This document shows, in pieces, positions 6,422 to 46,581 of a stretch of DNA of 64,000 nt. Position numbers and translations under genes: made by a program. This DNA is from a virus. The notes under the pieces were generated by a model. That model ran no database searches. It saw only the letters and a program-made list of their open reading frames with translations, and was not told the DNA's origin. Numbering within the stretch: position 1 is the first letter of the stretch; each line of letters opens with the position of its first letter. Where the stretch lies: the IMG/VR virus record IMGVR_UViG_3300028176_000002, positions 1-64,000 of that record; one strand, written 5' to 3'.

Positions 6422-7108
6422 ATGAAAACTAAAATTTGTACTAGATGCAAAACATTAAAAAATCTAAATGAATTTCATAGAGACAGTCGCAACAAAAGCG
6501 GAATAACTTCTTGGTGTGATAGATGTCATAAAGAATATCAGAAACAGTATGATGAGAAATACACCAAACTACATCGAAAAGAAATACTAAAGAAGAAACA
6601 ATTATATTCTTCTTCACATAAAACTGAGAAGGCAATATACGACCGTGAATATTATCAAGAACATAAAGAAGAACGGATAGAGAACGTAAAACAATGGAAT
6701 AAACTTCACACAGAAGAAAGAAGGGAATATAAGAAAAAATATTCTGAGATTAATCGTGATAAAATAAACGTTTATCGTAAAAATAAAAGTAAAACAGATA
6801 TAAATTTTAGGATAACAGACAATTTAAGGAGTAGATTACGCCAGGCACTAAGGAATAATTCTAAATCTGATAACACATTCATTCTGTTAGGATGTAGTAT
6901 TGAATTTTTGAAAGATTATTTAGAGCGGAAATTTATTACTGGTATGACCTGGGAAAATTATGGAACGTGGCACATTGACCACATAATTCCGTGTGCTAGT
7001 TTCAATATGAGTAAAGTATTAGAACAGTATAAATGCTTTAATTATAAAAATTTACAGCCCTTATGGGCTATTGATAATTTAATAAAACACGATAAAATTT
7101 TACAATAA
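6422..7108 (+). CDS. HNH homing endonuclease
   Basis: The ATG lies one base after the terminase stop (TAATATG). An in-frame GTG at 6395 is the alternative start but would overlap terL by 26 bases. The N-terminus has a Cys4 zinc finger (CTRCKTLKNL...WCDRC). A long basic helical linker rich in K/E/Y follows. The C-terminal nuclease domain carries WHIDHIIPCASF and CFNYKNLQPLWA. Close relatives on the opposite strand lie at 39379-40065 and at the right window edge. The portal gene's ribosome binding site follows its stop. Confidence 0.87.
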   Translation: MKTKICTRCKTLKNLNEFHRDSRNKSGITSWCDRCHKEYQKQYDEKYTKLHRKEILKKKQLYSSSHKTEKAIYDREYYQEHKEERIENVKQWNKLHTEERREYKKKYSEINRDKINVYRKNKSKTDINFRITDNLRSRLRQALRNNSKSDNTFILLGCSIEFLKDYLERKFITGMTWENYGTWHIDHIIPCASFNMSKVLEQYKCFNYKNLQPLWAIDNLIKHDKILQ

Positions 7109-7125
7109 AGAATAGGAGACCAAAA

Positions 7126-8835
7126 ATGTCAGATGCTCTCGGTGGAGGTTTGTTTAATGCGTTCCTCGAATATCTTTTCGCTACAGGAGGAATTTCCATA
7201 CCAAAAACATATCATGAACAGTGCAATTCTGTTAAGAATATGCTCAGTAATGATGTTACAGGAACTATTACTACTGTAACTGATTATGCTATTAATTCCG
7301 CATCAGAAACGGTATACTCTATTGAGTCTTCCAATGAAACGATTGAGAAACTGTTAAATTTATGGTTATCGAAGATAAATTTAATGGTTAATGGTGTCCC
7401 GACGGGTATACATGAGTTAACTAAGGAGTACTACAAGGAGAGGTGGCAAGGTTCTTCTTTATGTCTTCTGAGAGTTAGTTCATGGAAAAACATCACCGTA
7501 GACGGTGCAACTATTTCCGTTCCTACAGTGCTGTGGTTTGTTAATGGCTCGTCAGTTTATGTTAAAAGAGACGAAAAGAATTTTAAATTAGGTTCTGATA
7601 AATTTTTCTTAGATTCAGAATATAAAAATGAAGTTCCTAAAAATAAAGATGAGGAAATTGTAGTTAATAAACCATATGGTCGATGGTTCGATAAATATCC
7701 GACACCGTATCTCGTTCGCAATGGTGTTCTCAAGAATTATTTAGGTATTCAAGCTATTCAGGATAAATCAGACGAAGTTATTACTAAGATTTTACCCTAC
7801 TTATTCATAATCAATAAAGGCACTGAAAAAATGTTTATTGATGGTAAAGTAGATTATAAAGATAGCGATTTAACTACCTTAGTAGATAATTTTAAAACAG
7901 CATTAGAGACATATAAAGCAGAAACAAATGCAACACCAGTAAACGCAATACCTTTTGACCAGAAATATGAACATTTAATTCCCGACCTCAAGAATATTTT
8001 GAGCGAGGAATTATACAGACAAGGATACCGTGCGTTATTGTGTGGTTTAGGATTTATAGATGTATTACAGGGTGTTTCTAGTACCAGAAAAGAATCAGTG
8101 CTTAATCCGAAACCTTTTATTGCCGAAGTAAATGCGGGCGTAGATGGTTTTAAGACTGTTCTTTTAGAAATAATCAACATTATAATCGCTAAAAATAAAG
8201 GAGAACACAAAAAATTATTTAGCGAAAATAATGAATTAAAAATAACTAATTCACCTCTTAAAATTAATGTCGAAACAATTATAGATTCTATTCGGTCTGG
8301 TTTTGTGTATGGAGTTGTGTCTATTAAGACTTATCAAGAAGTTCTAGGCGTTGACCCAGATAAAGAACTCCAGAGATTACAGAAAGAATGGAATGATGGA
8401 TTGCGTGATATTTGTTATCCTCATTTGATTCAAAATACTGAAAAGGACCCAGATGTTAATGTGAAATTACCACCAGTACAACAAAAACCAATAGTTACTC
8501 CGAAACAGGTACAGAAACAGAATGAGAAAACAAAATTTCCTCCAAATATGGTTAAGAAACCAATAAAAAAAGGGGAATTAGTTTTAGATGAGCCTATTGA
8601 CCCGAATTTAGAAACATTAGAAGAAGCACCTTACAATGATTTAGAATCATTGCCGAAGGCAGTAAAGAAGATGCCGAAACATGCACAGCATATATGGCAA
8701 TCAACATTTAATCAGGTTTTAAATGATAATCCAGGGGACGAAGCAACAGCATTTAGAATTGCTTGGTCAGCAGCAAATAAATGGTTAAAAGAAAACAACT
8801 ATAAAAAAGTCGAAGATAAATGGGTTAAGGAATAA
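7126..8835 (+). CDS. portal protein with C-terminal ChaB-like domain
   Basis: This 569-residue protein lies directly downstream of terL (one HNH gene intervenes), the canonical place of the dodecameric portal. The body matches portal-like organisation: an N-terminal region, a central GIQAIQDKSDEVITKILPYL stretch and an SSTRKESVLNP segment. Residues about 500-569 (LESLPKAVKKMPKHAQHIW ... AFRIAWSAANKWL) fit the ChaB domain. ChaB was first described in an E. coli cation-transport regulator and is also known as a fusion to phage head proteins. AGGAGACC precedes the ATG. Confidence 0.8.
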   Translation: MSDALGGGLFNAFLEYLFATGGISIPKTYHEQCNSVKNMLSNDVTGTITTVTDYAINSASETVYSIESSNETIEKLLNLWLSKINLMVNGVPTGIHELTKEYYKERWQGSSLCLLRVSSWKNITVDGATISVPTVLWFVNGSSVYVKRDEKNFKLGSDKFFLDSEYKNEVPKNKDEEIVVNKPYGRWFDKYPTPYLVRNGVLKNYLGIQAIQDKSDEVITKILPYLFIINKGTEKMFIDGKVDYKDSDLTTLVDNFKTALETYKAETNATPVNAIPFDQKYEHLIPDLKNILSEELYRQGYRALLCGLGFIDVLQGVSSTRKESVLNPKPFIAEVNAGVDGFKTVLLEIINIIIAKNKGEHKKLFSENNELKITNSPLKINVETIIDSIRSGFVYGVVSIKTYQEVLGVDPDKELQRLQKEWNDGLRDICYPHLIQNTEKDPDVNVKLPPVQQKPIVTPKQVQKQNEKTKFPPNMVKKPIKKGELVLDEPIDPNLETLEEAPYNDLESLPKAVKKMPKHAQHIWQSTFNQVLNDNPGDEATAFRIAWSAANKWLKENNYKKVEDKWVKE

Positions 8836-9461
8836 TGAGAAATTGCTCTTGCGGAAAACAAATACATGAAACATCCATAAGATGTAGGTCGTGCGAAGCA
8901 AAGAGAAAGCATGCTGAAGGCATATTGTTTCAAACTAATTTTAAGGGTGGTTTAGAATCAAGAGTTAAACATTGCGTAGACTGTGATAAACAGTTAAATG
9001 ATTCTGCATATTATCGTGGTGATGAACGGTGTCATAAATGTGCAAAACAAGGAAAATTAAACAATTTTTTCGGAAAGAAATTAACAACAAGTCATAAAGA
9101 AAAAATAAGTTTAAATCATGCTGATGTTAAAGGTAAAAACAATCCTATGTTCGGTAAAATATCACATGGAAAAGGTTCTTACTATAAAAATATTTGGATG
9201 CGTAGCACATGGGAAGTTAAGTTTGCTAAGTGGTTGGATAATCATAATATTAAATGGTTATACGAACCTAAAACTTTTGATTTAGGAAAGACAACATATA
9301 CACCCGATTTTTACGTTCCAATATACGCCACTTATATTGAAATCAAAGGATACTGGAGACCTGATGCAAAAAATAAATTTAATTTGTTTAAGAAATTATA
9401 TTCCAGAGAAGAAATTGTAATTTTACAAAAAGAGAAGTTAATAAAATTGGGGGTATTATAA
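8835..9461 (+). CDS. PD-(D/E)XK homing-type endonuclease with zinc modules
   Basis: The start overlaps the portal stop as TAATG. The 208-residue product begins with Cys-rich modules (CSCGKQI...RCRSC and CVDCDKQL...RCHKC) like those of the HNH nucleases here. NUMOD3-like repeats follow (FGKKLTTSHKEK, NNPMFGK). The C-terminal domain is not HNH. It has WMRSTWEVKFAKWL, then YTPDFYVP and YIEIKGYW, i.e. the PD...ExK catalytic pattern. It is thus a different nuclease fold on the same DNA-binding platform. Its stop overlaps the protease start as TAATG. Confidence 0.8.
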   Translation: MRNCSCGKQIHETSIRCRSCEAKRKHAEGILFQTNFKGGLESRVKHCVDCDKQLNDSAYYRGDERCHKCAKQGKLNNFFGKKLTTSHKEKISLNHADVKGKNNPMFGKISHGKGSYYKNIWMRSTWEVKFAKWLDNHNIKWLYEPKTFDLGKTTYTPDFYVPIYATYIEIKGYWRPDAKNKFNLFKKLYSREEIVILQKEKLIKLGVL

Positions 9462-11350
9462 TGAATAATAAAGAATTAATTTCAAGCGTATTGCTGGAAA
9501 TTGCTAAAAGGTCAGAAACTGTATTTTTAGCAGATGATGAAGTAAATCAGGATTTAATTGATGCAGCAGGAAAAATGGGAATTGTTATTCCTTCTCCTGA
9601 TTTATTGTTAATGAAAACAGTATATGCCGAAATAGACCGTGTAAATTTAAACGGTGTAGTTCTTCCGAGAAAAGCAGTTGAAGAAGGATTACCCACATTA
9701 ATAGCTAAACAATGTAATTGGGAACACGATGGCAGTGGAAGAATATGTGGATTTACTCTTGCGGTTAAAATAAATGGAAATGAGATAGAAACGATTAATG
9801 TAATTTTTAAATCTCTTTTCCCTGATGAAACTGCTGATTTAAAAGCCAAGATAAAATCTAAAGAAGCTGCAGTAAGTTTTGAAATTTGGAATAGAGACCC
9901 AGTTACAGGAAATTCAGTAGTTTCAGTATTGTCTGATGGAAATGTAGAAATCAATCCAATAATTTTTCATGGTACTGGTGTATTATTAGTAAATCCTCCT
10001 GCATGTCCAAAGGCATTAATTTTTAAAATGATTGGTAAATGTGAAGCAATAGATTCTAAAAAAATAGAAGATAAATCTTTTACAGAAGATTTAGTTTATG
10101 CACAATTGGCTGTCGAAGAGCCGAAATGCAATAACTGTAAGACTTGTACTTGCGATACTAAAAAGGAGGTATTAATCGTGGAAGAAATTAAAGCCGAAGT
10201 TAAGACTGAAGAAATCTTGGATGCCGATTATGACGGTGGCGAGATTGATGAAGCAAAGAAATTAACTACTGAACAACGTAATGCATTACCTGATAGTGAT
10301 TTTGCGTTAATACAGACAGATGCAAAAGGAAACAAGATTCGTAGATTTCCTATCAATGATGAGGCACATGTAAGAAATGCTCTTGCGAGATTGCCACAGG
10401 CAAAGGGATTATCACCCGAAGAGAAGGCATCTACATTAGCCAAAATATTGAAGAAAGCCAAGGAGTTAAATATGACAGAATTGCTCAAGAAATATGCTGC
10501 AGTTGAAGAAGTTGTAGAAGCAAGTCGTTTGTGTAAAACATGTTCTGCTCCTATTCATGCAGATAATCAGAGTGGTCTATGTGCTGATTGTGTAGCTGGA
10601 AAATCTCGAATTCCTACATCGCCTGATGTTAAACAAACTCCAGAATACAAAAAATTATCAGACGAAATGGAAAAATTGGATATTCTAATTAAACAAACTA
10701 CAGACCCAGTTGAATTAAAAAAATTACAAGAAGAACGTAAATTATTAGAACAAAAAGAATTAAAATTATTTAAAGCCGAAGAAATTATTCCCGAAATCAA
10801 AGTCGAAGAGACCAAAGTAGAAGCTGAAGTCAAACTAGAAGAGGTTGAGAAGACCACACCCGAAGAGACCAAAGTAGAAGCCGAAGTCAAACCCGAAGTT
10901 GTTGAGGAAGTAGTAAAGGAAGAAGCAAATGTTATTACAAAAACAGAAGAAGAAGTAAAAGTAATTGAAACTTCTCCAACGTTAGATGTAGTAACTACGG
11001 TAAAGAAAACCACTGAAGTTAATGTGGACGAAAGTGGTAAAGTATTAAACACGATAGTAGAAGAAATAAAAACAGTCGAGACATTCTCTTTTGAGCAGGT
11101 AACCGAACAGGTTGCTTCAGCCAAAGTAGAATTGCAAAAGATTGTTGAAGCACAGTTATTAGAAATCGAAAAATTGAAACAAGAACTTGAGGTTGCAAAG
11201 CAACCAAAAGAGATTGTCAAGGCGAGCGAAGAGGATACCACTCCAGCAGACCTTACAGTTGGTGAAGTAAATACCACTGGTGAAGATGCACTTAGCAAAC
11301 GTGCAAAAGAGATTGATTCAATAATTACAGAAAAAAATAAAAAAAGATAA
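9461..11350 (+). CDS. prohead protease fused to scaffold
   Basis: Residues 1-200 resemble an HK97/herpes-type capsid protease. The proposed catalytic His is in NWEHDGSGR (H89) and the Ser in AVSFEI (S139), followed by INPIIFHGTGVLLVNPPA, the usual end of the domain. A Cys cluster (CNNCKTCTC) then leads into a module with LPDSDFALI and INDEAHVRNALARL, resembling DUF6582-type segments of phage head genes. A CKTC...CADC finger and a long acidic, repetitive E/V/K tail with coiled-coil potential follow. It sits between portal and major capsid. Total length of 629 exceeds a lone protease. The catalytic assignment is by pattern only. Confidence 0.7.
   Translation: MNNKELISSVLLEIAKRSETVFLADDEVNQDLIDAAGKMGIVIPSPDLLLMKTVYAEIDRVNLNGVVLPRKAVEEGLPTLIAKQCNWEHDGSGRICGFTLAVKINGNEIETINVIFKSLFPDETADLKAKIKSKEAAVSFEIWNRDPVTGNSVVSVLSDGNVEINPIIFHGTGVLLVNPPACPKALIFKMIGKCEAIDSKKIEDKSFTEDLVYAQLAVEEPKCNNCKTCTCDTKKEVLIVEEIKAEVKTEEILDADYDGGEIDEAKKLTTEQRNALPDSDFALIQTDAKGNKIRRFPINDEAHVRNALARLPQAKGLSPEEKASTLAKILKKAKELNMTELLKKYAAVEEVVEASRLCKTCSAPIHADNQSGLCADCVAGKSRIPTSPDVKQTPEYKKLSDEMEKLDILIKQTTDPVELKKLQEERKLLEQKELKLFKAEEIIPEIKVEETKVEAEVKLEEVEKTTPEETKVEAEVKPEVVEEVVKEEANVITKTEEEVKVIETSPTLDVVTTVKKTTEVNVDESGKVLNTIVEEIKTVETFSFEQVTEQVASAKVELQKIVEAQLLEIEKLKQELEVAKQPKEIVKASEEDTTPADLTVGEVNTTGEDALSKRAKEIDSIITEKNKKR
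10178..11350 (+). CDS. nested scaffold protein from an internal start
   Basis: An AAAGGAGGT box at 10162-10170 lies seven bases before a GTG at 10178 that is in frame with codon 240 of the protease gene. This is stronger than the ribosome binding site of the full gene. Starting here would give a 390-residue protein lacking the protease domain: the INDEAHVRNALARL module, the zinc finger and the acidic coiled tail. Lambda C/Nu3 uses the same nested logic to make scaffold in excess. A second in-frame ATG at 10472 also follows an AAGGAG box. Confidence 0.55.
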   Translation: MEEIKAEVKTEEILDADYDGGEIDEAKKLTTEQRNALPDSDFALIQTDAKGNKIRRFPINDEAHVRNALARLPQAKGLSPEEKASTLAKILKKAKELNMTELLKKYAAVEEVVEASRLCKTCSAPIHADNQSGLCADCVAGKSRIPTSPDVKQTPEYKKLSDEMEKLDILIKQTTDPVELKKLQEERKLLEQKELKLFKAEEIIPEIKVEETKVEAEVKLEEVEKTTPEETKVEAEVKPEVVEEVVKEEANVITKTEEEVKVIETSPTLDVVTTVKKTTEVNVDESGKVLNTIVEEIKTVETFSFEQVTEQVASAKVELQKIVEAQLLEIEKLKQELEVAKQPKEIVKASEEDTTPADLTVGEVNTTGEDALSKRAKEIDSIITEKNKKR

Positions 11351-11416: not shown

Positions 11417-12352
11417 ATGGCTGAAAGACAAGACCCAATAGAGTTAGCCTATACGCTTTTAAATGAGCCTATAGACCCTAACCTAAGATGTCCGCTCGAG
11501 TTGCAAGAAATTGTAAATTATGTTGAAGCTCCAATGGGAGAGACAATTCATTATTTTGCCTCACCTGCTCAAGATAGAGGAGTAGATGTAATTTATGCTG
11601 CTAATGCTGATGGCGATTTAGCACCTGTAAAAGTTCCTTTAAGGGGTGTTTCTGCTCTTACCTTTGAAGATTTACAGTCTAAATTAGATTATGTTTTGAT
11701 TCATGAGTTGTTAAATTCCAAAGACAGTAGTGCCTTAGCTGCAAGAAAAAATGGCATTATCAGGTCAATGGATAATGAAGAAGTTCGTAGAGCTTTAAAT
11801 CTTTGTTTTGTGGCTTCTCAGGAAGTAAATAAAGTTACAGGTGAGGATTTACTGGATGTAATCATAAAGATGAAACAGAAAGTATCTGATTATGCTACGG
11901 ATTATATTCTCTTAGTCGCTTCTGATGTTATGGACGAGATTGAGAAGTATGACAAAGACAATGTTGCAACCTTCAATTATAAGATGAATATTCTTGAAGA
12001 AATTGCAAAATTAGGTATTAAGAAAATAGTTAAAATTATAGGTAATTCTGGTTTAGCTGGTGCTTCTACTCCTACTTTAGCTGCTGGTAAGGCTATCTTA
12101 GTGGGAAGAGATTCTTCTCTTACTGCTGGTAAACCTATATCAGTAGTTCGGGCAAAGTTTGAAAAAGAAGTAGCTGAGAATAGCGGTGCAGCAGAAGGTG
12201 CTGTTCGTTTAATTCAGGTAGTAAAAACACCTACAGTTATTAATGCTAATGGTAAAAATACTATTGGCTATGGCGTTTTTGGCTACGAAGGAATTATCGA
12301 AGTAAATCTTAACTTCAGAGCAATTAGCTGGAGCGACGACTTGATTGCTTAA
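11417..12352 (+). CDS. major capsid protein (HK97-like, inferred)
   Basis: The gene directly follows the protease/scaffold and precedes the head-tail joining genes, the conserved slot of the capsid subunit. The 311-residue product has an N-arm, central helical region (LQSKLDYVLIHELL, VTGEDLLDVIIKMKQK) and a C-terminal GYGVFGYEGIIEVNLNFRA stretch, compatible with the HK97 fold. The leader has a strong AAAGGAGAGTT site, and a long hairpin follows the stop, both fitting very high expression. Sequence alone gives no unique motif. Confidence 0.72.
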   Translation: MAERQDPIELAYTLLNEPIDPNLRCPLELQEIVNYVEAPMGETIHYFASPAQDRGVDVIYAANADGDLAPVKVPLRGVSALTFEDLQSKLDYVLIHELLNSKDSSALAARKNGIIRSMDNEEVRRALNLCFVASQEVNKVTGEDLLDVIIKMKQKVSDYATDYILLVASDVMDEIEKYDKDNVATFNYKMNILEEIAKLGIKKIVKIIGNSGLAGASTPTLAAGKAILVGRDSSLTAGKPISVVRAKFEKEVAENSGAAEGAVRLIQVVKTPTVINANGKNTIGYGVFGYEGIIEVNLNFRAISWSDDLIA

Positions 12353-30368: not shown

Positions 30369-30612
30369 TCTTTACTCCCGGTTGTTGACACCACTTGCAT
30401 CCGTTCTTAAATAAGAATTCTTTATTAGGTATTTCACGTTCACAAAAAGGACATAATAATTTAGGTTCATGATAATAGCAGTCTGCACATGCAGACCAGA
30501 TAGTGCAGCAATCAGTATCTTCATTTTTACAGAGATTATGATTCCTGCATCTATTTAATCTCATTTTTTTATTAATTTCTTCCATCATGTTATCGTAATT
30601 GGATTTAGGCAT
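30361..30612 (-). CDS. multi-cysteine zinc-binding protein
   Basis: The 83-residue protein has many Cys/His: CRNHNLCKNEDTDCC, CADCYYHEPKLLCPFC, CKWC. At least two zinc sites are plausible. It starts at TAATG overlapping the glycosyltransferase stop. Its role could be metal storage or nucleic-acid binding. It is the largest of the Cys-rich small proteins here. Confidence 0.6.
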   Translation of the reverse strand: MPKSNYDNMMEEINKKMRLNRCRNHNLCKNEDTDCCTIWSACADCYYHEPKLLCPFCEREIPNKEFLFKNGCKWCQQPGVKNE

Positions 30613-31472
30613 TATACTCCTAACTTTTTTAAAATAGCATTAAATACTTCATCTACTGTAATAGCAGACATGCATGGATGTGGTTCTGTAGGACACGGAT
30701 TTTGTGTTGTTTTAGATAAATTATTATAAATTTTATTGCAGGGTGAACATTTTAAAGGTTTCCAGATATTAATATTATGCCCGTAACCGAATACGCCCGG
30801 ATGAGTAGAACCCCATAATATAACTGAAGGCGTATAGGGCAATAATGCAGTTGCATGATTAGAAAAACTATCTATACCTAAATGTAATGTTGCTTTTTTA
30901 ATTAATTGAATACATTCCGTAACACTTAATTTATTCCGCATATCAATAGTTCCGTTTAATTTCATATCACTTTTTCCTATTTGAACTATGGCGTAATCTG
31001 TCCGCCCGAGTGAACAAAATCGGTCTATTACTCCCTGCCAATTTTGAATATCCCAATCTTTATAAGGAGACCATCCAGAATTACAATGTATAGTTATTAC
31101 TTTCCTTTCAGAATTCATTAATACATTAAATTCTTTATTTTCCGTCGGAAGAAATTCAGGATAAAATCCATAATTATAAAAGTGGTCATCTAATCCTAAT
31201 TCTTTACCAAAATACCACGTTAAATGTTTAACTAAAGGTTTAGATGTATAACCGTATAGATTTTGTGCTCCAGGGGTCTTAATATCGAAATCAGCACTAC
31301 TTTTTACTTCATCTACCGCAGGACAAATAATAGGTAAATCTTTCCAACTTGGGTCGCAATAATAGATAATCTTATCATTAGGATTAAGTTTTTTATACTT
31401 ATCAATTGCCATAAGGGTCATGATTATATCACCCAGGGCTCCAGGACGATTTAAATGCAATGTTTTACTCAC
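30612..31472 (-). CDS. GT9-type (heptosyltransferase-like) glycosyltransferase
   Basis: From a GTG overlapping the upstream stop (GTGAGTAA), behind an AGGAGG box, the product has 286 residues. An upstream ATG at 31565 would overlap the amidoligase by 101 bases and lacks such a site. RPGALGDIIMT near the N-terminus is the GT9 acceptor loop. GIDSFSNHATALLPYTPSVILWGSTHP and the C-terminal CSPCNK match the ADP-heptose-binding half of LPS heptosyltransferases. It probably transfers a sugar from an activated donor. Donor and acceptor are unknown. Confidence 0.8.
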   Translation of the reverse strand: MSKTLHLNRPGALGDIIMTLMAIDKYKKLNPNDKIIYYCDPSWKDLPIICPAVDEVKSSADFDIKTPGAQNLYGYTSKPLVKHLTWYFGKELGLDDHFYNYGFYPEFLPTENKEFNVLMNSERKVITIHCNSGWSPYKDWDIQNWQGVIDRFCSLGRTDYAIVQIGKSDMKLNGTIDMRNKLSVTECIQLIKKATLHLGIDSFSNHATALLPYTPSVILWGSTHPGVFGYGHNINIWKPLKCSPCNKIYNNLSKTTQNPCPTEPHPCMSAITVDEVFNAILKKLGV

Positions 31473-32151
31473 GTTCAATTGCCTCCTGACAAAAGGTAAG
31501 TACGAAATATATTGTTGATTTAATTTCCTTAAAGTTCGTAGTCGAAGAAAAAAGTCTGAATTCAAGCGTCTCGTAATCAGTTTTAGGTAAATGCGAAATG
31601 TTCAATGACCTGTATTTTTCGTCAAGTGAAGAATAACCACTAAAAGAATAACCATTATGATTACGATATTGATGTATTACTTTTTCGGTCAATTTATAAT
31701 CTTTTTTAGGTAAAAATTTACATGTTTCTGAAAGTCTCTCTTTAGATACATTAAATCTTTTGGCAATATACTTTTGACGATGAACCCATTCACGAATAAT
31801 GTTTAATACCGCTTTATCTGATAAATTTTTAACATTAATATGTAGGTGTAACCCGCACGATGGTAATGCTTTAGCCTTATATACTCGGCATAATGCTAAT
31901 ATTTCTTTTATTTGCATCAAAGAGTCTTCATTATAGAATAGATGGTTTGATTTCTCAGGCGAAAGTTCAATACCATTTTTTAATGAACCATCTGACTTAA
32001 TTTCCCATCCTTTAAGAGTTTTCCCCCGGTCAATTAACTTATCCGCATCAGTCTTAGCCGGAAGTTCGAACTCAAATTCTGGGGAATAACGGATTCTAGT
32101 AATATCCGTAAGTTTTATTTCTTCTTTTTTAACTCGTTTTATTTTCTTCAT
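31465..32151 (-). CDS. putative amidoligase
   Basis: The 228-residue protein has the order of motifs of the glutamine-synthetase-like amidoligase_2 family: SPEFEFEL near residue 23, GWEIKSDGSL, then CGLHLHIN and YETLEFRLFSST. These form the ATP/metal centre that joins amino groups to carboxylates in peptide or cell-wall modification. AGGAGGATAA precedes the ATG. It is next to the GT9 gene, so a peptide- or amino-acid-decorated glycan is a possible product. Confidence 0.72.
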   Translation of the reverse strand: MKKIKRVKKEEIKLTDITRIRYSPEFEFELPAKTDADKLIDRGKTLKGWEIKSDGSLKNGIELSPEKSNHLFYNEDSLMQIKEILALCRVYKAKALPSCGLHLHINVKNLSDKAVLNIIREWVHRQKYIAKRFNVSKERLSETCKFLPKKDYKLTEKVIHQYRNHNGYSFSGYSSLDEKYRSLNISHLPKTDYETLEFRLFSSTTNFKEIKSTIYFVLTFCQEAIERE

Positions 32152-32284
32152 TTATCCTCCACCAAGCAAAACGTCGTTTATCTTTATCAGATTTATTAAT
32201 AAATGGTATAAATCTAATGCAGATAATATAACCTTCTGATTTAAAATACCAATATAATTTCTTCTCATACCAAACAGTAAACAT
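32129..32284 (-). CDS. 51-residue basic protein
   Basis: A start at 32284 follows AAGGAGTAAA. A longer upstream in-frame start lacks a site and would overlap the next gene. The product is aromatic and basic (VWYEKKLYWYFKSEG; KDKRRFAWWR). It overlaps the amidoligase start by 23 bases. Function unknown. Confidence 0.5.
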   Translation of the reverse strand: MFTVWYEKKLYWYFKSEGYIICIRFIPFINKSDKDKRRFAWWRINEENKTS

Positions 32285-32285
32285 T

Positions 32286-32444
32286 TTACTCCTTATCAGG
32301 AACTTTTTTAATCTCCCAATGGTGTTTCTGATATGAAACATCTTCGCATATTATTAATACATCGTCTGTTCCTAATTCTTTTGATACAAATCCCTGTTTA
32401 ATTATTCCGGCATCTTTAAAATAAACCATCTGACCCATTCTCAT
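32286..32444 (-). CDS. 52-residue small protein
   Basis: An ATG at 32444 preceded by GAAAGGTACTC opens a 52-residue frame (MRMGQMVYFKDAGI...), ending just before the next ATG with AAGGAGTAA serving both as C-terminal codons and as the next ribosome binding site. The strand-rich GQMVYFKDAGIIKQGFV may be a small SH3-like barrel. Not recognised. Confidence 0.5.
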   Translation of the reverse strand: MRMGQMVYFKDAGIIKQGFVSKELGTDDVLIICEDVSYQKHHWEIKKVPDKE

Positions 32445-32456
32445 GAGTACCTTTCT

Positions 32457-33206
32457 CTATTTATCATAGATTATCCATCCGTTAATATTTAATTTTTTTC
32501 TAAGTAATTTTAAATAATCACCTAATCTTTTTCTATATTCTTTATATTCATCCCCACCAGCAGCATTATTCTTTTTAAATTTAATAGAATTAGTCCAAAA
32601 TACTTTAACATTACGTTTCTGTAATTCTAAAAACGCTAATTCATGTTCTCCTAGTTTAAATTCCACATCCCATAAGTCTGTGATGCTATTAGTTTTAGCT
32701 AAAAATATGTTCATACATATATCTACTTTTTGGAAAGATAAGTTATTAGAAATCATATAATCCTCAGATTTCTTAAAATGAATTCCTTTATTATCAACAT
32801 ACATATAAAAATTCCATGGAGCTTTGGCATTCTCTAATTCAAATCCAACTACACCATAATTAGATTCAGAATTTAAGAAATCTATAATAGGTTCAAAATT
32901 ATATTTTTCAGTAAACTGAATTGAATCAGAAGAAACTAAACAATAATCATATCCCAATTCTTTAGCCTTATTAACCAAGAAATTTCTAGCATAACTAAGT
33001 CCGCAATCAAAAGGAAGATAATATACTTCACAGGGAATCTGGGATTTAAAATAATCATATGTTATAATCTTTTCATCCGTTTGATATCCCTGGTCTGCAA
33101 TTAAAACTATACACTCTTCTGTATAATTATCTACAATAGATTGTACCGTTTTGTACAATGCGTAATCTCTTAAAAATGTGGTTATAAGTATTGCTACTTT
33201 ATTCAC
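32457..33206 (-). CDS. GT-A type glycosyltransferase
   Basis: The 249-residue single-domain protein starts with AILITTFLRDYALYKTVQSI, the nucleotide-binding start of GT2-like enzymes, then DCGLSYARNFLV and YDYCLVSSDS. The usual DxD is replaced by SSDS, so metal binding may be weak. The DCGLSYARN motif recurs in the larger enzymes at 33372 and 35305, marking a common family. It starts at GTG overlapping the upstream TAG. Confidence 0.7.
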   Translation of the reverse strand: MNKVAILITTFLRDYALYKTVQSIVDNYTEECIVLIADQGYQTDEKIITYDYFKSQIPCEVYYLPFDCGLSYARNFLVNKAKELGYDYCLVSSDSIQFTEKYNFEPIIDFLNSESNYGVVGFELENAKAPWNFYMYVDNKGIHFKKSEDYMISNNLSFQKVDICMNIFLAKTNSITDLWDVEFKLGEHELAFLELQKRNVKVFWTNSIKFKKNNAAGGDEYKEYRKRLGDYLKLLRKKLNINGWIIYDK

Positions 33207-33379
33207 TAATCCTCCAAGTTTACTTCAATAATCGAGGCATTCCAGTAACTGTTTCCCATTAATGGGGTATTTGTTCTTTTGCAACATGTTTCTGCCTTCT
33301 TTTTTGAGAGAAATGCTTTTGCAATATGGTGAAAATTTTCTCCTGAATTATATACCACTAAATACACTATTTTACCCAT
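33206..33379 (-). CDS. 57-residue small protein
   Basis: The ATG overlaps the upstream stop by eight bases (ATGGGTAA), and the stop overlaps the next GTG (TAGTG). The sequence (MGKIVYLVVYNSGENFHHI...) has AKAFLSKKKAETCCKR, resembling short uncharacterised phage proteins. A GGAGG lies in its final codons for the next gene. Coupling at both ends supports reality. Confidence 0.55.
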   Translation of the reverse strand: MGKIVYLVVYNSGENFHHIAKAFLSKKKAETCCKRTNTPLMGNSYWNASIIEVNLED

Positions 33380-35312
33380 TTTTTAATTCCTCCCAGGTCT
33401 GTTTAAATGTTTTTTCTAAATAAGCAACTACAGGTATAGGAACATTAATATTTAAATCATAAAGTTTAGCGGGTTTAATGATACGTTTTGGCTCTACTTT
33501 AATATTAAGCAATTCTTTGCAGTATTCAAATGTTTTTAGAATCAATTCTTTTTCATTTAGAGTAGAAACACCTATATACAGTTTATCGGAAACTATGTCT
33601 TTTTTGGTAACTGCTTCTAAGCAAGAGTAATTCAATAACCAGAAAACAATAGAATTTTTATTTAGATAATTAATAATCTTAATAATAATTTCCTTCTGCT
33701 CTATATTTATTTTATTAACTTTATTGTATTCTACTGTTTCGAGTTTTTGAATTTTAATTTCAGGGGGTTTTGGTGTATTAGAATCTAAAGGTAAATAAGT
33801 AACTGGAGTTATAGTGTTTGCTGTTTTTTCTAATTGATATAATGAACTCTTATTAAACGTATAAAAATCAGCGACATTCCAATATACTTTTAGATAATCT
33901 AACTCTTTTTTTCTTGTCCTTAATGCATTATAAGTAGGATTTTTATTATCATGAACGTGTTTAATTTCTGTTTCAGGACAGAACCCAACAGTATAATTAG
34001 TTTTTGTTTTAACTAACAAATATACATGCGTATGTTCTATTGTTTTAACATTGTCATCAAAAATATTTGGTACTTCTCTTTTCCACATGGTAAAATCAGA
34101 TACTATATTTGCTCTAAGAAATTTAGTTCCTTTGCTAGTAAATTCCCATTTAGCTAGATTTTTTTCGATTAAATAGTCTAGGGGGAAGTAACAAATTTTA
34201 TTATCTGCTCTATTTAAAAAATATGAATAAGAACCTGTAGTAGCGTATCCTTCTAAGTTTCCACCCACTATACCCAAAGCTGGGTTTTCTTCCAGTATTT
34301 CTCTAAGTTTATATAAGTTAGTCTTATAAGTAGCCTGGAAATCATCTTCCATATATACTAGATACTTTTCTTTACATAATTCTTTTAAAATTCTTCTAGT
34401 TTTACTAATTCCGCTATCATACGGTATATATTTAATTGTATGACCGAGTTTAGTTAATTTAGCATATAATTTATCCTTTTTTTCGGAATGTTCCCCCTGG
34501 TCAACAATATACATTTTAAATTCCTGTAGATGCAATAGTATGGAGTCTATTAATCTAAAAAGAGATTCATCTCTTAAAAATGTAGAGATTCCGAGTCCAA
34601 TATCTTTATTTCTACTACTTTTAATTAAATTTATACCTAGATATTTAATTTTCCAATCAATATCTGACATTTCTTTTCCAGTTACCTTTTCCAGACCGTC
34701 ATCTACGTTTTCTCTAACATAGAAAATATCAGGATAAAATACAAAATTAAATTTTGCTTGTTTAACTCGAATCCAAAATTCCCAGTCTTCATATGGTATA
34801 TTTTTATATCCCTTAACTTTTGACCATACGGATTTTTTTAATAGACTGGAACCTGTTAAACGGTTATAATTAACCAAATCTTCTAATGTAAAAGTTTCAT
34901 GACCCCAATCAAATGTTTTATTATGAAGGTTAGATTTTAAATTTTTTAGTGTAATTTTATAATTAATTACGTCTGCTTCTGGATGTTTCGCTATATGTTT
35001 TTTTAAACTTTCCAGTGGATTTTTTGTATAGTAATCATCGTCATCTAGGAACGTAATCCATTCAGATGTACAGTTCTTTATTCCTGTATTCCGTGCTTCT
35101 CCAAGACCTCTATTCGAGCCATGCTCAATATATTTTATTTTTGGATAACAAGAAAGTATATTTTTAATATAATCAGTATGTTCTTTATCAGAACCATCAT
35201 TGACGAGTATTACTTCATCAAATTCTACGAAATATACAGAATCTAAGGCTCGTTTTAACCATGCAGTTCTATTATAGGTAGGTATAATTAAACTAATCGT
35301 AGGGTTATACAT
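33372..35312 (-). CDS. multidomain glycosyltransferase with degenerate LicD-like tail
   Basis: Started at 35312 (GGAGGGAAA site, eight-base overlap ATGTATAA) it has 646 residues. A classical GT2 domain at about 1-230 has SLIIPTYNR, VNDGSD and FLDDDD. A second GT-A domain at about 240-480 starts at GLGISTFLRD and has DSGISKTRRIL and YMEDDF. The last 110 residues (IVFWLLNYSCLEAVTKKD) align with a LicD domain but lack its acidic residues. It likely builds two different sugar linkages. The third domain may only bind substrate. Confidence 0.75.
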   Translation of the reverse strand: MYNPTISLIIPTYNRTAWLKRALDSVYFVEFDEVILVNDGSDKEHTDYIKNILSCYPKIKYIEHGSNRGLGEARNTGIKNCTSEWITFLDDDDYYTKNPLESLKKHIAKHPEADVINYKITLKNLKSNLHNKTFDWGHETFTLEDLVNYNRLTGSSLLKKSVWSKVKGYKNIPYEDWEFWIRVKQAKFNFVFYPDIFYVRENVDDGLEKVTGKEMSDIDWKIKYLGINLIKSSRNKDIGLGISTFLRDESLFRLIDSILLHLQEFKMYIVDQGEHSEKKDKLYAKLTKLGHTIKYIPYDSGISKTRRILKELCKEKYLVYMEDDFQATYKTNLYKLREILEENPALGIVGGNLEGYATTGSYSYFLNRADNKICYFPLDYLIEKNLAKWEFTSKGTKFLRANIVSDFTMWKREVPNIFDDNVKTIEHTHVYLLVKTKTNYTVGFCPETEIKHVHDNKNPTYNALRTRKKELDYLKVYWNVADFYTFNKSSLYQLEKTANTITPVTYLPLDSNTPKPPEIKIQKLETVEYNKVNKINIEQKEIIIKIINYLNKNSIVFWLLNYSCLEAVTKKDIVSDKLYIGVSTLNEKELILKTFEYCKELLNIKVEPKRIIKPAKLYDLNINVPIPVVAYLEKTFKQTWEELKNG

Positions 35313-37212
35313 TTTCCCTCCGATTTTCTTTATAATTAATAATAGCACTCTCTCCGAGTGTATACCCTTTTTCAATACCGTATTTTTCGTATATAAAATT
35401 ATAATACATTCTTTTTCTCATTTCACGGTATTTTTCATCATCTACTGGATGCTGGTGTTCAATTAAAACATCTGGAATAAACGCTATTTTAACATTGCTA
35501 TTTAATTTTATATTTAAGAAAAAATCCATGTGTTCAGAATGTATTTTATGTTTGATATCCCAGGGATTATTTTTTAAGACTTCAGTTTTAGCTAAAAAGA
35601 AGTTATAAATGATGTCGCATATACCATATTTTATTTGATTTATCTGGTGAGGTTCTATAGTTTTATTATCTACTAATTTATTCCACTCTATCGAAAGTAA
35701 AATTTTATCTAGTATGAACAAAAATTTCTCATAAGATTTTACTTGACCTTCTTGCCACAATCTTCCGCCCACTATTCCAATATCTTTATTAGCTGAAAAA
35801 ACCTCCATCATATTATATATATTCGTGTTACGTGTTAGAATAAAATCATCTTCTAATAATAAAGTATACTGCGTTTTTACCTGCTTAACTAACTCATTTC
35901 GGGCATAACTTAGTCCACAGTCTTCTGGTAGTTGTAAAACAGTAACGTTTTCATGTGTTATATTTATAGGTTCTTTATTTTGACTTCCTATAATTAGAGG
36001 AATATCTGGGTATAAATTACAGAAGGATTTAACTAACCTATCTAATGACTTTTCTCTATTTAAAGTAGTAACTACTGCAGTAATTGCAGAATAAGTGTTA
36101 TCTGTATTAGAAAACTGTGTAAATTCCCAACCTGGATTAGGTATTCTCCAACTTTCGCCATATAAATAGGCTAAATATTTTTCTGACTCATTTGGCACTC
36201 TAAATTTAGTTCCTAAGAAATCGATATATTTTAGAGGAACTATTAAATCTAGCGGAACTTTCATTCTCCATTCTTCATTCCAGTGTTTATGTATTCTATT
36301 GGGTTTATAAGAATAACAGTATGAATATTTTTCATCTGAAGTATGAAAAAATAAATCTACGTGTGGATGATTAGTATTTCCTTTATATACCGCCAATTCC
36401 TTATCCCACTGATATTTATATTTAAAATCTGACTTATCCAAAATTTCCTTTACCTTCCATCTATCGTTTATATCCAAACTTATATCAATATCGTTTGGGT
36501 CGTGTGCTATAAAATCTTTATCTCTCACTGCACCTAATAGAGTACCTGTTTGTAACCAGAATTGAATACCATTAAAATCTAGAAGAGATTTTAAATCTAA
36601 TAGCAATTCTTTTTGTGTGAATATTTTGTTGGTAGGGACACTTCTAACTCCATTAAAATATTGGTATAACTGTTTGTTTGGTACTGCGGGTTTATACGAT
36701 AATGGAGTTATCCATTTTTTCCCATATAGCACTTCTAGCATTTTCTCTGGATTCTTAGGTATATTAAATATTTCTCCCTTTAATTCTATTTGTTTAAAGG
36801 GCAGTATATCTTCTTTATTTAATTCCCCATTAATATGATAAAAAGTATAGAATTTATCATCTTCTCCAATCCAACCGTGCCATCCGTCAAACCAATTCTT
36901 TTCAACAAAATAATGGTTTTGTCCTAAAAAATGTAAATCTCCGCATAACCGTTTTTCGTTATGAAATTTATTATCAATATCAATTATCTGTTTTTTTACT
37001 TCTTCTTTAATATTTACAGTATGAAAAATAATAATATCAAAATCATTGTCAGATAAGATTAAATCTCTTTCTCGCATAGCACCAAGAAGAGTACCGCCAT
37101 ATAAGAGAATATCATACCCCATTTTCTTAAAATCGGTTTCTAATGTTTTAAGTTTTTTAATTGCTGAATCTTTATCTTCTTCGGTCCAATCTCTAAAAAA
37201 TGGGTAACTCAT
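35305..37212 (-). CDS. double LicD nucleotidyltransferase fused to a glycosyltransferase
   Basis: A 635-residue protein. LicD domain 1 has YGGTLLGAMRERD (38-50) and DNDFD (55-59). LicD domain 2 has GTLLGAVR (223-230) and DPNDIDIS (238-245). A GT-A domain from about 375 has AVVTTLNR, EDCGLSYARN and LLLEDDFIL. LicD-family enzymes transfer phosphocholine or phosphorylated polyols from CDP-activated donors. Such a fusion suggests phosphodiester-linked decoration of a glycan. A GAGGAGTAATT site precedes the ATG. Confidence 0.78.
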   Translation of the reverse strand: MSYPFFRDWTEEDKDSAIKKLKTLETDFKKMGYDILLYGGTLLGAMRERDLILSDNDFDIIIFHTVNIKEEVKKQIIDIDNKFHNEKRLCGDLHFLGQNHYFVEKNWFDGWHGWIGEDDKFYTFYHINGELNKEDILPFKQIELKGEIFNIPKNPEKMLEVLYGKKWITPLSYKPAVPNKQLYQYFNGVRSVPTNKIFTQKELLLDLKSLLDFNGIQFWLQTGTLLGAVRDKDFIAHDPNDIDISLDINDRWKVKEILDKSDFKYKYQWDKELAVYKGNTNHPHVDLFFHTSDEKYSYCYSYKPNRIHKHWNEEWRMKVPLDLIVPLKYIDFLGTKFRVPNESEKYLAYLYGESWRIPNPGWEFTQFSNTDNTYSAITAVVTTLNREKSLDRLVKSFCNLYPDIPLIIGSQNKEPINITHENVTVLQLPEDCGLSYARNELVKQVKTQYTLLLEDDFILTRNTNIYNMMEVFSANKDIGIVGGRLWQEGQVKSYEKFLFILDKILLSIEWNKLVDNKTIEPHQINQIKYGICDIIYNFFLAKTEVLKNNPWDIKHKIHSEHMDFFLNIKLNSNVKIAFIPDVLIEHQHPVDDEKYREMRKRMYYNFIYEKYGIEKGYTLGESAIINYKENRRENV

Positions 37213-37676
37213 TAATTACTCCTCTTTGCTTGCGATTTAATAATACGCACCGCACTGTTAATAATCTTTTCTTTAATTTTAGAAGATGATAATCGCTTAG
37301 TATAAGGGATAAAAGCAATCTTATTATTATCTCTAAGCCAATTTATGCCGGGATTATCTTTTCGATTCTTCCAATCATCTCCTACAACGAATAAATCCGC
37401 TTTCAATTGGATAAATTGTTCAATATCTACTAATTTAGTTTGCTTAACAACCTTATCCACTATCTTTAATTCTTTAATAATAGCAGTCCTATCTTTATAG
37501 CAGATTATAGGACGCATGCCTTTATGCTGTAAAATGAGGGAATCTGTAGAAACCCCTACAATCAGATAGGTTCCCATTGCCTTAGCTTGTTTAAGGACAT
37601 TGATATGCCCAAAATGAAGTAAATCGAATGAGCCGGCAGTGAATATTACTTTAATTTTTGATGACATTTTACGCAT
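37212..37676 (-). CDS. TagD/RfaE-like cytidylyltransferase
   Basis: The 154-residue enzyme carries TAGSFDLLHFGH (HxGH nucleotide-binding motif), GDDWKNR and RLSSSKI, the set typical of glycerol-phosphate, ethanolamine-phosphate or heptose-phosphate nucleotidyltransferases. It would make the CDP- or ADP-activated donor for the LicD or GT9 enzymes beside it. The start lies inside the upstream HNH gene. ATG 37676 (MRKMSSK) is preferred over ATG 37667, and a GGGGAA site precedes it. Confidence 0.8.
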   Translation of the reverse strand: MRKMSSKIKVIFTAGSFDLLHFGHINVLKQAKAMGTYLIVGVSTDSLILQHKGMRPIICYKDRTAIIKELKIVDKVVKQTKLVDIEQFIQLKADLFVVGDDWKNRKDNPGINWLRDNNKIAFIPYTKRLSSSKIKEKIINSAVRIIKSQAKRSN

Positions 37677-38284
37677 AGTGTAATTCCCCAGATAATGTTC
37701 CACATTAATTTGCAACTTCTAATGTCAATAATGGATTTTAATTGATACATTTCTATTATACAAACAACTGGTATTTTATGATGAGCATTTATATTGCCTT
37801 TTGCACCACATACTTGGCAAGTATAATCATCTCGTTTAAACACCCTATTTCTCCAATTCTTATATTTTAACGAAGCGTAAACCAACAAATTTAAAGTTGT
37901 TCTTCCACCTTTCCAATTCGGATTTTTATTTCCACTTATGTCATTATTTTTATAATATAATTTTTTATTACAGCTTTTACAACGTAAACTAATCCCTTTA
38001 CCTAATTTCTTTTCACAATCAAGACAAAATTCTACTTTGCAATATTTTCCATGTTTAAAACTTGGAGCAGATGTACCATTTTTACCAAACATAGGATTAT
38101 TTACTCCAGCCATTTCTTTGCTCCGTTTTTCTTTTTGCTTTTTACTAAACCTGAATCCAAACATAGGATTTCCTGTTCCCGCCAACGTCTTATAATAACA
38201 TTCACGACATAATTTATTACTGTTATAATGAGCAGTTTTAGATAGTTTTTTATCGCATCGAAGACAGTAGACTGATTTAATCAT
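37646..38284 (-). CDS. HNH homing endonuclease
   Basis: The ATG overlaps the DUF2284 stop by eight bases (ATGATTAA). N-terminal CLRCDKKLS...CREC and NUMOD3-like GNPMFGFRF / NNPMFGKN precede a CLDCEKKL...CKSC module. The C-terminal nuclease has RDDYTCQVCGAKG and NAHHKIP, and ends in CVKC. The last 30 bases also encode the start of the cytidylyltransferase in another frame. Confidence 0.82.
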   Translation of the reverse strand: MIKSVYCLRCDKKLSKTAHYNSNKLCRECYYKTLAGTGNPMFGFRFSKKQKEKRSKEMAGVNNPMFGKNGTSAPSFKHGKYCKVEFCLDCEKKLGKGISLRCKSCNKKLYYKNNDISGNKNPNWKGGRTTLNLLVYASLKYKNWRNRVFKRDDYTCQVCGAKGNINAHHKIPVVCIIEMYQLKSIIDIRSCKLMWNIIWGITLCVKCHQKLK

Positions 38285-38771
38285 CAAAAAGCACCAAACC
38301 TATTCTGTAGAAGTAGTCTTTTACTGGAAACTTTAAATTTAATTTGGTTATTTTTTTAACCGCAGCGACTACATCTAGTCCTGTTCCCTCCAATGGAATG
38401 ATTGCCTTATCAGGAAATCGACATGGAAACGAACATACATCGCAATTCTTGCAGGAGCCAGCACCAAAACATACTCCAAAATGCCCATCTGATAATAGTT
38501 TTGCTCTAATTGCGAATAATTTGTCCTGTATTTCTTTACTAGATGAAACTCCCAATTCTTTCCAATTTTCAGGATTTTCTATCAAAAATTTCTTAAATAC
38601 CAGTGCCCCATGCTCAAATTTAGGTAGAATCTTTTTATAATAGCTTACTGATTCAATAAAAGGGGGACACTGTGCCTTGAACCCGTACCTTTTACAGCTT
38701 TTACAGTATTCTCTTACTTTATCACTAAAAAATTCTTCCAATATCTTCGGGTCAAACATTATCTGTTTCAT
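38277..38771 (-). CDS. DUF2284-like metal-binding protein
   Basis: The start at 38771 sits behind GGAGGGAAGTT and overlaps the upstream stop as ATGA. The 164-residue protein has CKSCKRYGFKAQCPP and GVCFGAGSCKNCDVCSFPC, the eight-cysteine order of DUF2284 proteins, followed by EGTGLDVV. These are thought to bind a metal or iron-sulfur centre. A phage copy is unusual. It follows a dehydrogenase gene. Confidence 0.75.
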   Translation of the reverse strand: MKQIMFDPKILEEFFSDKVREYCKSCKRYGFKAQCPPFIESVSYYKKILPKFEHGALVFKKFLIENPENWKELGVSSSKEIQDKLFAIRAKLLSDGHFGVCFGAGSCKNCDVCSFPCRFPDKAIIPLEGTGLDVVAAVKKITKLNLKFPVKDYFYRIGLVLFDD

Positions 38772-39379
38772 AACTTCCCTCCTATAATAATTTCGGGTAC
38801 TGAACATTCTTTCGGTAACTTAATTAACATTTTAATTATCTTTGCAATTTCTTTCGTTGAAACTGTTTTAAAATTACCCGGGCAAACAATTGTACTGTAA
38901 ATTCTCGGGTTATATTCAGCATTGATACATTGCGTAAGTCCTCTAAGAGCAAATTTAGACATAGTATAAATAGATTTATTTGGTGCTCCTGTAATAGACC
39001 TAGTAGAACCAATGTTAAGTATTAATCCTTCTTTCATTAATTTAATTGCTTCTTGGGTCATATAAAATGTTCCTTTAATATTTAAATCAATTAATCTCTC
39101 AATTTCAAATGGCGGATACGCTGTTAATGGACGAAATTCTCCTAGCATACCTGCATTGTTTATTAGAACATCAATCCTTCCCCATTTTTCAAAAGTTTTG
39201 TACATCAATATCCCAGCATCACCTTGATTGGTTATGTCTCCTTTAACAACCAGACGGTTTTTAGATTCGATATTATAAGAACTCCGGCTTATAGTTGCAA
39301 TGTTATACTCGGATAAAGATTGCATAATATCTTTTCCTAATCCCCTACTCGTTCCTGAAATAACGATTACTTTTTTCAT
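38768..39379 (-). CDS. short-chain dehydrogenase/reductase
   Basis: A 203-residue SDR with the cofactor loop SGTSRGLG (8-15), GDITN, LINNAG, and catalytic NIGSTRS...YTMSK. The basic residue after the Gly motif favours NADP(H). It is shorter than usual (about 250), with the substrate-binding C-terminus reduced. The substrate could be a nucleotide sugar or pterin. The sequence does not decide. It starts as TAATG on the HNH stop. Confidence 0.85.
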   Translation of the reverse strand: MKKVIVISGTSRGLGKDIMQSLSEYNIATISRSSYNIESKNRLVVKGDITNQGDAGILMYKTFEKWGRIDVLINNAGMLGEFRPLTAYPPFEIERLIDLNIKGTFYMTQEAIKLMKEGLILNIGSTRSITGAPNKSIYTMSKFALRGLTQCINAEYNPRIYSTIVCPGNFKTVSTKEIAKIIKMLIKLPKECSVPEIIIGGKL

Positions 39380-40065
39380 TAAAATTCCTTCTGTTTATTA
39401 TTTAGATATTTATCTTTTTTTATTAAGTTATCTTTCGCCCACAAGGGCTGTAAATTCGTGTAATTAAAACATTTACGCTGTTCGTCGGGTTTACTTAAAT
39501 CGAACGATGCACATGGTTTTATGTGGTCGCAATGTATTTCCCCATTTAATACTTTATCCCATTTCATTCCTTGTGTAAATTTAGATTGATAATATTTAAT
39601 GAAAAACGATATGGAACACCCTAGCAAATCTATAGTAGACATTGATTTGTTTTTTCCTCTTAAAACATTGCCAACCCGATTTCTTAAACAACAAGCAATT
39701 TTAAAGTTAATATCTGTTTTTAATCTATTTTTTACATATTCTCTTGCAACCTCTGCTATTCTTTTTTTGTTATTTTTCCTATATTTAGTCATATAAACTT
39801 GATTTTCTTTTGCATTATTCTTTTTCCATTCTTTTGAAAGTTCATTTAATTTTTCTTTATGAGTTTCATAGTATTCTTTTGTTATTTTTGTAATGTGTGT
39901 GTGATTCAGTTTTAAGTATTTTTTCCTATCTTTTTTATGCAGTTTTTGATATAATTTACTTCTACTTAAATTTGCCTGTTTAGCACATATATAAGAACAG
40001 TATTTTTGATTGTTGGATTTTCTTTTGTAAATGCATTTACAAACTATACAAGTTTTATTGTTCAT
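39379..40065 (-). CDS. HNH homing endonuclease
   Basis: Paralogue of the nuclease at 6422: N-terminal Cys cluster (CIVCKCIYKRKS...YCSYIC), long K/E/Y-rich linker, and C-terminal HCDHIKPCASFDLSKPDEQ with CFNYTNLQPLWAKDN. It starts as TAATG on the small membrane gene's stop and ends as TAATG into the dehydrogenase. AAGGAATT near its end serves the next gene. Confidence 0.86.
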   Translation of the reverse strand: MNNKTCIVCKCIYKRKSNNQKYCSYICAKQANLSRSKLYQKLHKKDRKKYLKLNHTHITKITKEYYETHKEKLNELSKEWKKNNAKENQVYMTKYRKNNKKRIAEVAREYVKNRLKTDINFKIACCLRNRVGNVLRGKNKSMSTIDLLGCSISFFIKYYQSKFTQGMKWDKVLNGEIHCDHIKPCASFDLSKPDEQRKCFNYTNLQPLWAKDNLIKKDKYLNNKQKEF

Positions 40066-40259
40066 TATAAATTTTTTGCTCTCGGTTTTGGCACTAATAT
40101 AAAATTACTATCTTCGTTTGCATACACAGAACCTTTTCTAGTTAATTTATTAAGTTCTTTTATTAAATTAGGAAGATATTTAATCTTCTTCCAATCATAT
40201 GTAAGCATGATTAGAAATGCTGCCCACAATAATATCGTCCAACTAATTCTTTTTCTCAT
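40065..40259 (-). CDS. small one-TM membrane protein
   Basis: Start at 40259 (MRKRISW...) after GGGAAGGC, overlapping the phosphoesterase stop. The 64-residue product has positive N-terminal residues and one hydrophobic helix (WTILLWAAFLIMLTY), then a basic tail. Type and function unknown. Confidence 0.55.
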   Translation of the reverse strand: MRKRISWTILLWAAFLIMLTYDWKKIKYLPNLIKELNKLTRKGSVYANEDSNFILVPKPRAKNL

Positions 40260-40794
40260 ATGCCTTCCCACTTTTTTGCCATACGCTATAGGCTTGGTTA
40301 ATGTCATTAATATCCACTGGTTGAAATTCCCAGCAATCCACTGATAAATCTACAATTACTGATTTCTTACCTAATCTTTTAAATACCCCCTCATTTCCAT
40401 GAGTATGTCCGCAGAAATTAAATTTAAAATCATCTCTTGCATGTCTCGGATTGTGAGTCATATGAATCTTATGACCCCCAAAATTCACATTAATAGATTC
40501 AATAATTGTTTTAGTGCCATTATTTGAATCATGATTTCCATCAATAAAAATAATATTTCTACATTTTATCTGATTTCTATAATAATCAAAGGCATTCTGA
40601 GGTGCATCTTTTGCCTCAGTGGATTTCTTCATGCAAAAATCTCCCAGAAAAAATAATACATCATTCTCATCAATCAATTCATTACAGTTTCTAATAATAG
40701 TTTCATCCATCTCTAAAGTGGTTTTAAATGGGCGTTTGCAGTATTCAATTATTTTTCCATGCCCGAGATGAAAATCCGATGCGAACCAGTTCAC
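40243..40794 (-). CDS. calcineurin-like metallophosphoesterase
   Basis: A 183-residue phosphoesterase with all family motifs: DFHLGH (7-12), LGDFC, GNHD, MTHNP and GHTH. Small relatives act on nucleotides, cyclic nucleotides or phosphodiesters. It starts at a GTG overlapping the HNH stop (GTGA), after AAAAGGAG. In the island it could process phosphorylated sugar intermediates. Confidence 0.85.
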   Translation of the reverse strand: MNWFASDFHLGHGKIIEYCKRPFKTTLEMDETIIRNCNELIDENDVLFFLGDFCMKKSTEAKDAPQNAFDYYRNQIKCRNIIFIDGNHDSNNGTKTIIESINVNFGGHKIHMTHNPRHARDDFKFNFCGHTHGNEGVFKRLGKKSVIVDLSVDCWEFQPVDINDINQAYSVWQKSGKAYEKKN

Positions 40795-41273: not shown

Positions 41274-41282
41274 TATTTCTCC

Positions 41283-43539: not shown

Positions 43540-43688
43540 TCTTCTACCTCACATTCATAAATTTCAGTACCATCATCTTTTAATTCTTTTAATTTCCACG
43601 GTAAAGAATTAAGCATTGAATCTAAATCTTTTCCATTCATTCCCATTTTATTAAATTTATTATAAAGTGCCAAAAAGAAATTATCCAC
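43536..43688 (-). CDS. 50-residue small protein
   Basis: A GTG at 43688 overlaps the acyltransferase stop by eight bases (GTGGATAA) with AGAGGTCAATC before it. The charged product (ALYNKFNKMGMNGKDLDSML) ends in EVEE and shares ATGA-like coupling with the fusion gene. Unknown. Confidence 0.45.
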   Translation of the reverse strand: MDNFFLALYNKFNKMGMNGKDLDSMLNSLPWKLKELKDDGTEIYECEVEE

Positions 43689-46450: not shown

Positions 46451-46581
46451 TTGATTTCCTTCCAGATTAACCCCTTACCACAATAAGGACAGTAACGATA
46501 ATTTGTATCAGTAATATGCAAAGACTCTTTTTCTCGTTTATCGCAATTATGAATAGATATCTTACGCTTCTTGGTCGTCAT
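46447..46581 (-). CDS. 44-residue zinc-knuckle protein
   Basis: The ATG is after GGAGGCTCAA, overlapping the aminopeptidase stop by four bases. The product contains YCPYCGKGL and a basic start (MTTKKRK). It ends by coupling into the next gene. Unknown role. Confidence 0.55.
   Translation of the reverse strand: MTTKKRKISIHNCDKREKESLHITDTNYRYCPYCGKGLIWKEIK

Follow-up and report, generated by a model that had tools for sequence, protein, structure and literature searches.

In phage lambda (the C/Nu3 pair), in phage Mu and in herpesviruses, a scaffold without the protease is made from a nested start, the same strategy as the one we propose below for a gene of a tailed phage. These systems differ in their parts: lambda has a ClpP-like protease of the S49 type, the nested scaffold of herpesviruses comes from a separate transcript, and in T4 the protease and the core scaffold are separate genes. 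In Mu, the scaffold start lies in frame within the protease gene, and gene 27 of Pseudomonas phage PaMx73 has a putative scaffold start at Val177 with ACGAGGA (both PMC4378225). The herpesvirus UL26.5 gene starts within UL26, such that an assemblin-fold protease is fused to the scaffold and a nested gene encodes the scaffold alone (PMC12474303).

The window, that is, the whole stretch of DNA analysed here, comprises positions 1 to 64,000 of IMG/VR record IMGVR_UViG_3300028176_000002. We think it likely, with a probability of roughly 0.9, that one mRNA from this locus yields both a protease-scaffold fusion and a nested, protease-free scaffold, in a lambda C/Nu3-like manner. We infer from the sequence that both starts are used, and the second in-frame start very probably yields scaffold without the protease. 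The features of the locus are as follows.

7126-8835, + strand: portal-like protein with a C-terminal ChaB domain (Pfam ChaB, E 6.5e-10), a conserved neighbour in the family
8835-9461, + strand: endonuclease-like ORF (weak Pfam matches to DUF790, Phage_endo_I and NUMOD3), the stop of which overlaps the ATG of the next ORF
9461-11350, + strand: fused protease-scaffold ORF (parent), 629 aa, with an ATG overlapping the preceding stop
9479-10075 (residues 7-205), + strand: predicted assemblin-like capsid-maturation protease domain (HMM span, alignment, AlphaFold2, Foldseek and VIA-align)
10118-10153, + strand: Cys-containing linker CNNCKTCTC, seen in the sequence between the protease domain and the nested start
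10162-10170, + strand: Shine-Dalgarno (SD) box AAAGGAGGT of the candidate nested scaffold gene, seen in the sequence and kept in the family
10178-11350, + strand: candidate nested scaffold gene, GTG start (V240), 390 aa; a separate homologous scaffold ORF exists in relative L006
10334-10465, + strand: DUF6582-like segment in the scaffold part (Pfam below cut-off; PHROG 16160)
10460-10474, + strand: claimed second start, AAGGAG plus ATG (M338), probably a chance match
11417-12352, + strand: predicted major capsid protein (MCP), HK97 fold (AlphaFold2 model, PDB matches)

The gene order is thus portal-like protein, endonuclease-like ORF, protease-scaffold and MCP. A portal role for the product of 7126-8835 is suggested by its size and position; ChaB was all that was found in this ORF, both in the Pfam/PHROG search and in PDB sequence profiles. 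The product of 11417-12352 is, by its predicted structure, an HK97-fold MCP: its AlphaFold2 model (pLDDT 78.6) had 181 PDB matches at E 0.001 or better, and among the matches listed were encapsulins, phage capsids and capsid-like proteins. Pfam and PHROG searches at E 0.001 or better returned no family for the MCP or the terminase-like ORF of the window, and other family members gave a few weak, unnamed PHROG matches. Upstream of the packaging genes, we also noted an ORF with long collagen-like G-T-T-G repeats (1582-2766).

The upstream part of the parent ORF is, by predicted fold, a capsid-maturation protease of the assemblin/T4 gp21 type. No Pfam or PHROG family was found for it at E 0.001 or better, so that membership of the lambda C (S49) family was not seen, and PDB sequence profiles had no match for either the protease or the MCP. 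Residues H89 and S139, candidates for the catalytic His and Ser, are invariant in 36/36 aligned protease sequences, and an AlphaFold2 model built from these 36 aligned protease parts reached a pLDDT above 88 over most of residues 31-190. All 42 PDB matches of this model counted by Foldseek at E 0.001 or better were herpesvirus proteases, followed by T4 gp21. Structural alignment with VIA-align gave a Z of 11.9 against the varicella-zoster protease (1vzv; rmsd 2.5 over 114 residues) and of 11.6 against T4 gp21 (5jbl_A; rmsd 2.4 over 124 residues), the first unrelated row having a Z of 6.5. Together, the predicted protease fold and the predicted MCP fold fix the context of the locus as head genes.

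A preliminary description of this DNA had pointed to an SD box and an in-frame GTG after the protease domain, and had called this start stronger than that of the parent gene; both points were borne out. A 7-base spacer (ATTAATC, 10171-10177) separates the box AAAGGAGGT from GTG at 10178-10180, which is in frame with the parent ((10178-9461)/3 = 239) and is codon V240. SD strength was expressed as the predicted duplex energy with a nine-base anti-SD, a simple scale on which V240 scored -12.3 kcal/mol, the parent ATG -9.8 kcal/mol and M338 -7.5 kcal/mol; on this scale, V240 is stronger than the parent start. The overlap of the parent ATG with the preceding stop codon suggests possible translational coupling to the endonuclease-like ORF. 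RNA folding at the SD box revealed no special openness.

The part downstream of V240 is a putative scaffold, an assignment made by position, low complexity and analogy, not by homology. It stands before the HK97-fold MCP gene, and its C-terminus is conserved in the family. The DUF6582-like segment within it scored E 0.0018 in Pfam (19 bits vs a cut-off of 27.3) and E 8e-10 against PHROG 16160, an unnamed family; the translation of relative L002 is without this segment.

Ribosomes that initiate at ATG 9461 would make the 629-aa protease-scaffold fusion, and those that initiate at GTG 10178, with its strong internal SD, would make a 390-aa scaffold without protease. Given their common C-terminus, both products would be expected to co-assemble: most of the scaffold in the procapsid would be the free form, and the fusion would bring in a limited amount of protease. 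The nested start would set the protease-to-scaffold ratio. The nested product might instead come from its own transcript, as with herpesvirus UL26.5, made from a promoter inside the gene (9461 to 10178), and the SD box would then serve that transcript. One promoter-like match does lie at 10079-10106, and herpesviruses have a separate gene start (PMC12474303); however, promoter-like matches occur at chance number (11 vs a shuffle mean of 8.9), and an SD alone suffices on a polycistronic phage mRNA. We therefore consider a separate transcript very unlikely and, if it were true, the protein outcome would be unchanged.

Whether the internal start signal is kept was analyzed in relatives of the window gene. 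Portal and MCP alignments, used as queries, picked out 52 viral contigs. The protease is present in 42 of them, throughout between the portal-like and MCP genes; the other ten had no protease match, five of them ending less than 500 bases past the portal gene and five continuing for 2.4-6.3 kb. In all complete cases but one, the protease-scaffold is a single long ORF of 459-1058 aa. Three of the 42 rows were shorter than 300 aa (split L031, partial L045 and L066) and were left out of the counts together with four near-copies, leaving 35 distinct genes; this set includes the window's own gene (L024, an identical contig) and two genes with 3' ends cut off (L027 and L057). A profile search of genome contigs with the protease alignment had no match, and the same search with the portal alignment found two loci, L104 and L105. 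The fused gene of the former agrees with that of L083 in length, start position and start context, and L104 was not taken as a new locus.

The MAGs that hold L104 and L105 are titled Lokiarchaeota and Cyanobacteria, respectively, and such titles say little about the host. A bacterial host is hinted at elsewhere in the window, where a peptide deformylase (PF01327, E 1e-35; 48920-49618) lies near an M17 aminopeptidase (PF00883, E 1e-55; 46578-47480, - strand), a pair of enzymes that process protein N-termini, encoded by a single phage. The window also holds clustered glycosyltransferase and LicD-like ORFs, one of them containing TPR repeats (30600-43540, - strand; two of the ORFs were checked with Pfam), and an MFS/BT1-type membrane transporter that is unusual for a phage (E 1e-16; 44478-45656, - strand).

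After the protease domain, 27/35 distinct fused genes have an in-frame start whose predicted SD pairing is -10 kcal/mol or stronger, vs 4/133 control ORFs; the controls are ORFs of at least 250 aa at the same loci (35 genes vs 133 controls: Mann-Whitney p 2e-17, Fisher p 5e-20, both ignoring relatedness and so overstating independence). In 25 of those 27 genes, the internal start equals or exceeds the parent start in strength. The stricter arrangement, in which GGAGG is followed after seven or eight bases by a start in frame, was counted 24 times in the 13,478 codons after the protease domain of the 35 fused genes, whereas 276 control ORFs at these loci held one case in their 62,311 codons. 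By gene, 22/35 carry it, rising to 27/35 at a spacing of 4-12. Locus L105, found after the pattern had been set, also fits (GGAGG, eight bases and GTG at codon 434).

A signal of this kind could be a by-product of a Lys/Glu-rich linker, in which AAG GAG happens to stand close to a codon for Val or Met that does not serve as a start. The linker is indeed K/E-rich and, in genes with EGG-type peptides, the peptide itself makes a GGAGG box likely (0.3-0.7 per gene under the null in several). We compared the counts with a null in which synonymous codons were permuted within each gene (500 runs). The 22 genes observed out of 35 exceeded the null mean of 5.57 and its maximum of 10, such that the preliminary description's expectation of SD conservation at synonymous sites in relatives was upheld; in the window's clade, 8/10 genes carried GGAGG, seven or eight bases and a start vs a null mean of 0.21 and a maximum of 2. 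Furthermore, equally K/E-rich downstream parts of the same genes hold few other sites, and the split relative L006 has its scaffold in an ORF of its own. We thus regard a by-product as extremely unlikely. The codon at which the nested start falls ranges from 230 to 814, and the surrounding peptides vary (KKEV, EKEG, EGGKTM), while the box and its spacing stay.

Eight of the 35 genes do not have a start of -10 kcal/mol or better (L029, L042, L049, L050, L051, L078, L087 and L089). L029 has GGAGG 14 bases before an ATG; in L049, L050, L051 and L087, the boxes that precede an ATG are AGGAG only; and no convincing internal start site was found in L042, L078 and L089. On the protease tree, taken without a root, the seven genes without GGAGG at a start need at least five changes, which implies that the strong form was weakened, lost or gained several times. 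In a distant clade (L047, L064, L077, L088 and others), we noted a Cys-rich, zinc-ribbon-like stretch of ~190-610 aa between the protease domain and the nested start. Lying before the nested start, this stretch would be present in the fusion only.

The preliminary description had placed another nested start at M338, which would give a third scaffold form of 292 aa. AAGGAG (10460-10465) lies six bases ahead of an ATG at 10472 that is in frame as codon M338, and in the distant relative L049 the best internal start (AAGGAG, M429) is at the same peptide motif. This part of the description did not hold among closer relatives: the box is kept in 0/4 window-clade relatives with the motif (L026, L034, L063 and L006), and a search with KAKxLNM, a narrow pattern by which other members may be missed, found five window-clade genes, with AAG GAG in the window's only. 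The predicted pairing of -7.5 kcal/mol is also ordinary, as internal starts of -7 kcal/mol or better turn up in 24/133 controls. The M338 signal is probably due to chance, and a third scaffold form is unlikely.

The exception to the single-ORF arrangement, a close relative, supports the internal start, as its gene is naturally split at the same boundary. In L006 (contig 3300032156_000097), the K-E codons of the junction are soon followed by the end of the protease ORF (6857-7579). An endonuclease ORF comes next (7572-8336; Pfam DUF559, E 9e-10), and then the scaffold as an ORF of its own (8326-9363), which has AAGGAGG, a 7-base spacer and ATG and is immediately preceded by in-frame stop codons. 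At the old junction, the codons are AAA GAA, and the box is absent there. The protease tree groups L006, the window gene and L029 at 99/97. Since other members of the clade are fused, the split is most simply read as a derived insertion at the nested boundary. An intron was considered as its cause and set aside, as no Rfam family reached the gathering threshold on L006 and L016, a search that covers known families only. Endonuclease-like ORFs also stand between other head genes of the lineage, for example at 8835-9461 in the window.

We tentatively suggest, as a possibility that goes beyond the proposal of two products from one mRNA, that selection keeps the nested start and not the peptide around it, and that, taken together with herpesvirus UL26/UL26.5 on the same protease fold, the nested arrangement is either ancient in the assemblin-type head genes of tailed viruses and herpesviruses or has arisen there more than once. 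As part of the same tentative suggestion, the nested start would have survived a mobile endonuclease that invaded exactly the protease/scaffold boundary and turned one fused gene into two.

The nested protease/scaffold strategy is already known; the phage lineage is undescribed. By tblastn with the portal, the MCP and the protease parts of two relatives, the lineage was not found among 50,697 annotated phage records, and the full window protein matched these records in the DUF6582 region only, in one phage (two records). Among open-licence PMC papers, we found none on the lineage or its nested start. The lineage gains an assigned head module (a predicted assemblin-like protease, a putative nested scaffold and a predicted HK97-fold capsid) that is unnamed in sequence libraries. 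The 390-aa product would be missed by ordinary gene calling. The way in which lambda, Mu and herpesviruses control protease dosage would here recur in a family with enough members to study how the start moves, weakens and is lost, and the endonuclease-split relative offers a natural experiment on the need for fusion.

Compared with Mu and PaMx73, the window gene belongs to another lineage with no sequence match found, and the PaMx73 box is weaker than AAAGGAGGT. Herpesvirus proteases are the best structural matches of the window protease model, at a sequence identity of 10-21% in structural alignments. The herpesvirus UL26/UL26.5 pair relies on a separate transcript, whereas the window gene has an internal SD box. 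T4 gp21 shares the predicted fold of the window protease, but T4 keeps its protease and core scaffold in separate genes, in contrast to the fused gene of the window. The likeness to lambda C/Nu3 in an unrelated sequence, put forward in the preliminary description, is apt as a matter of strategy: no sequence match to lambda was found, and the S49-type protease of lambda is replaced in the window by one with a predicted assemblin-like fold.
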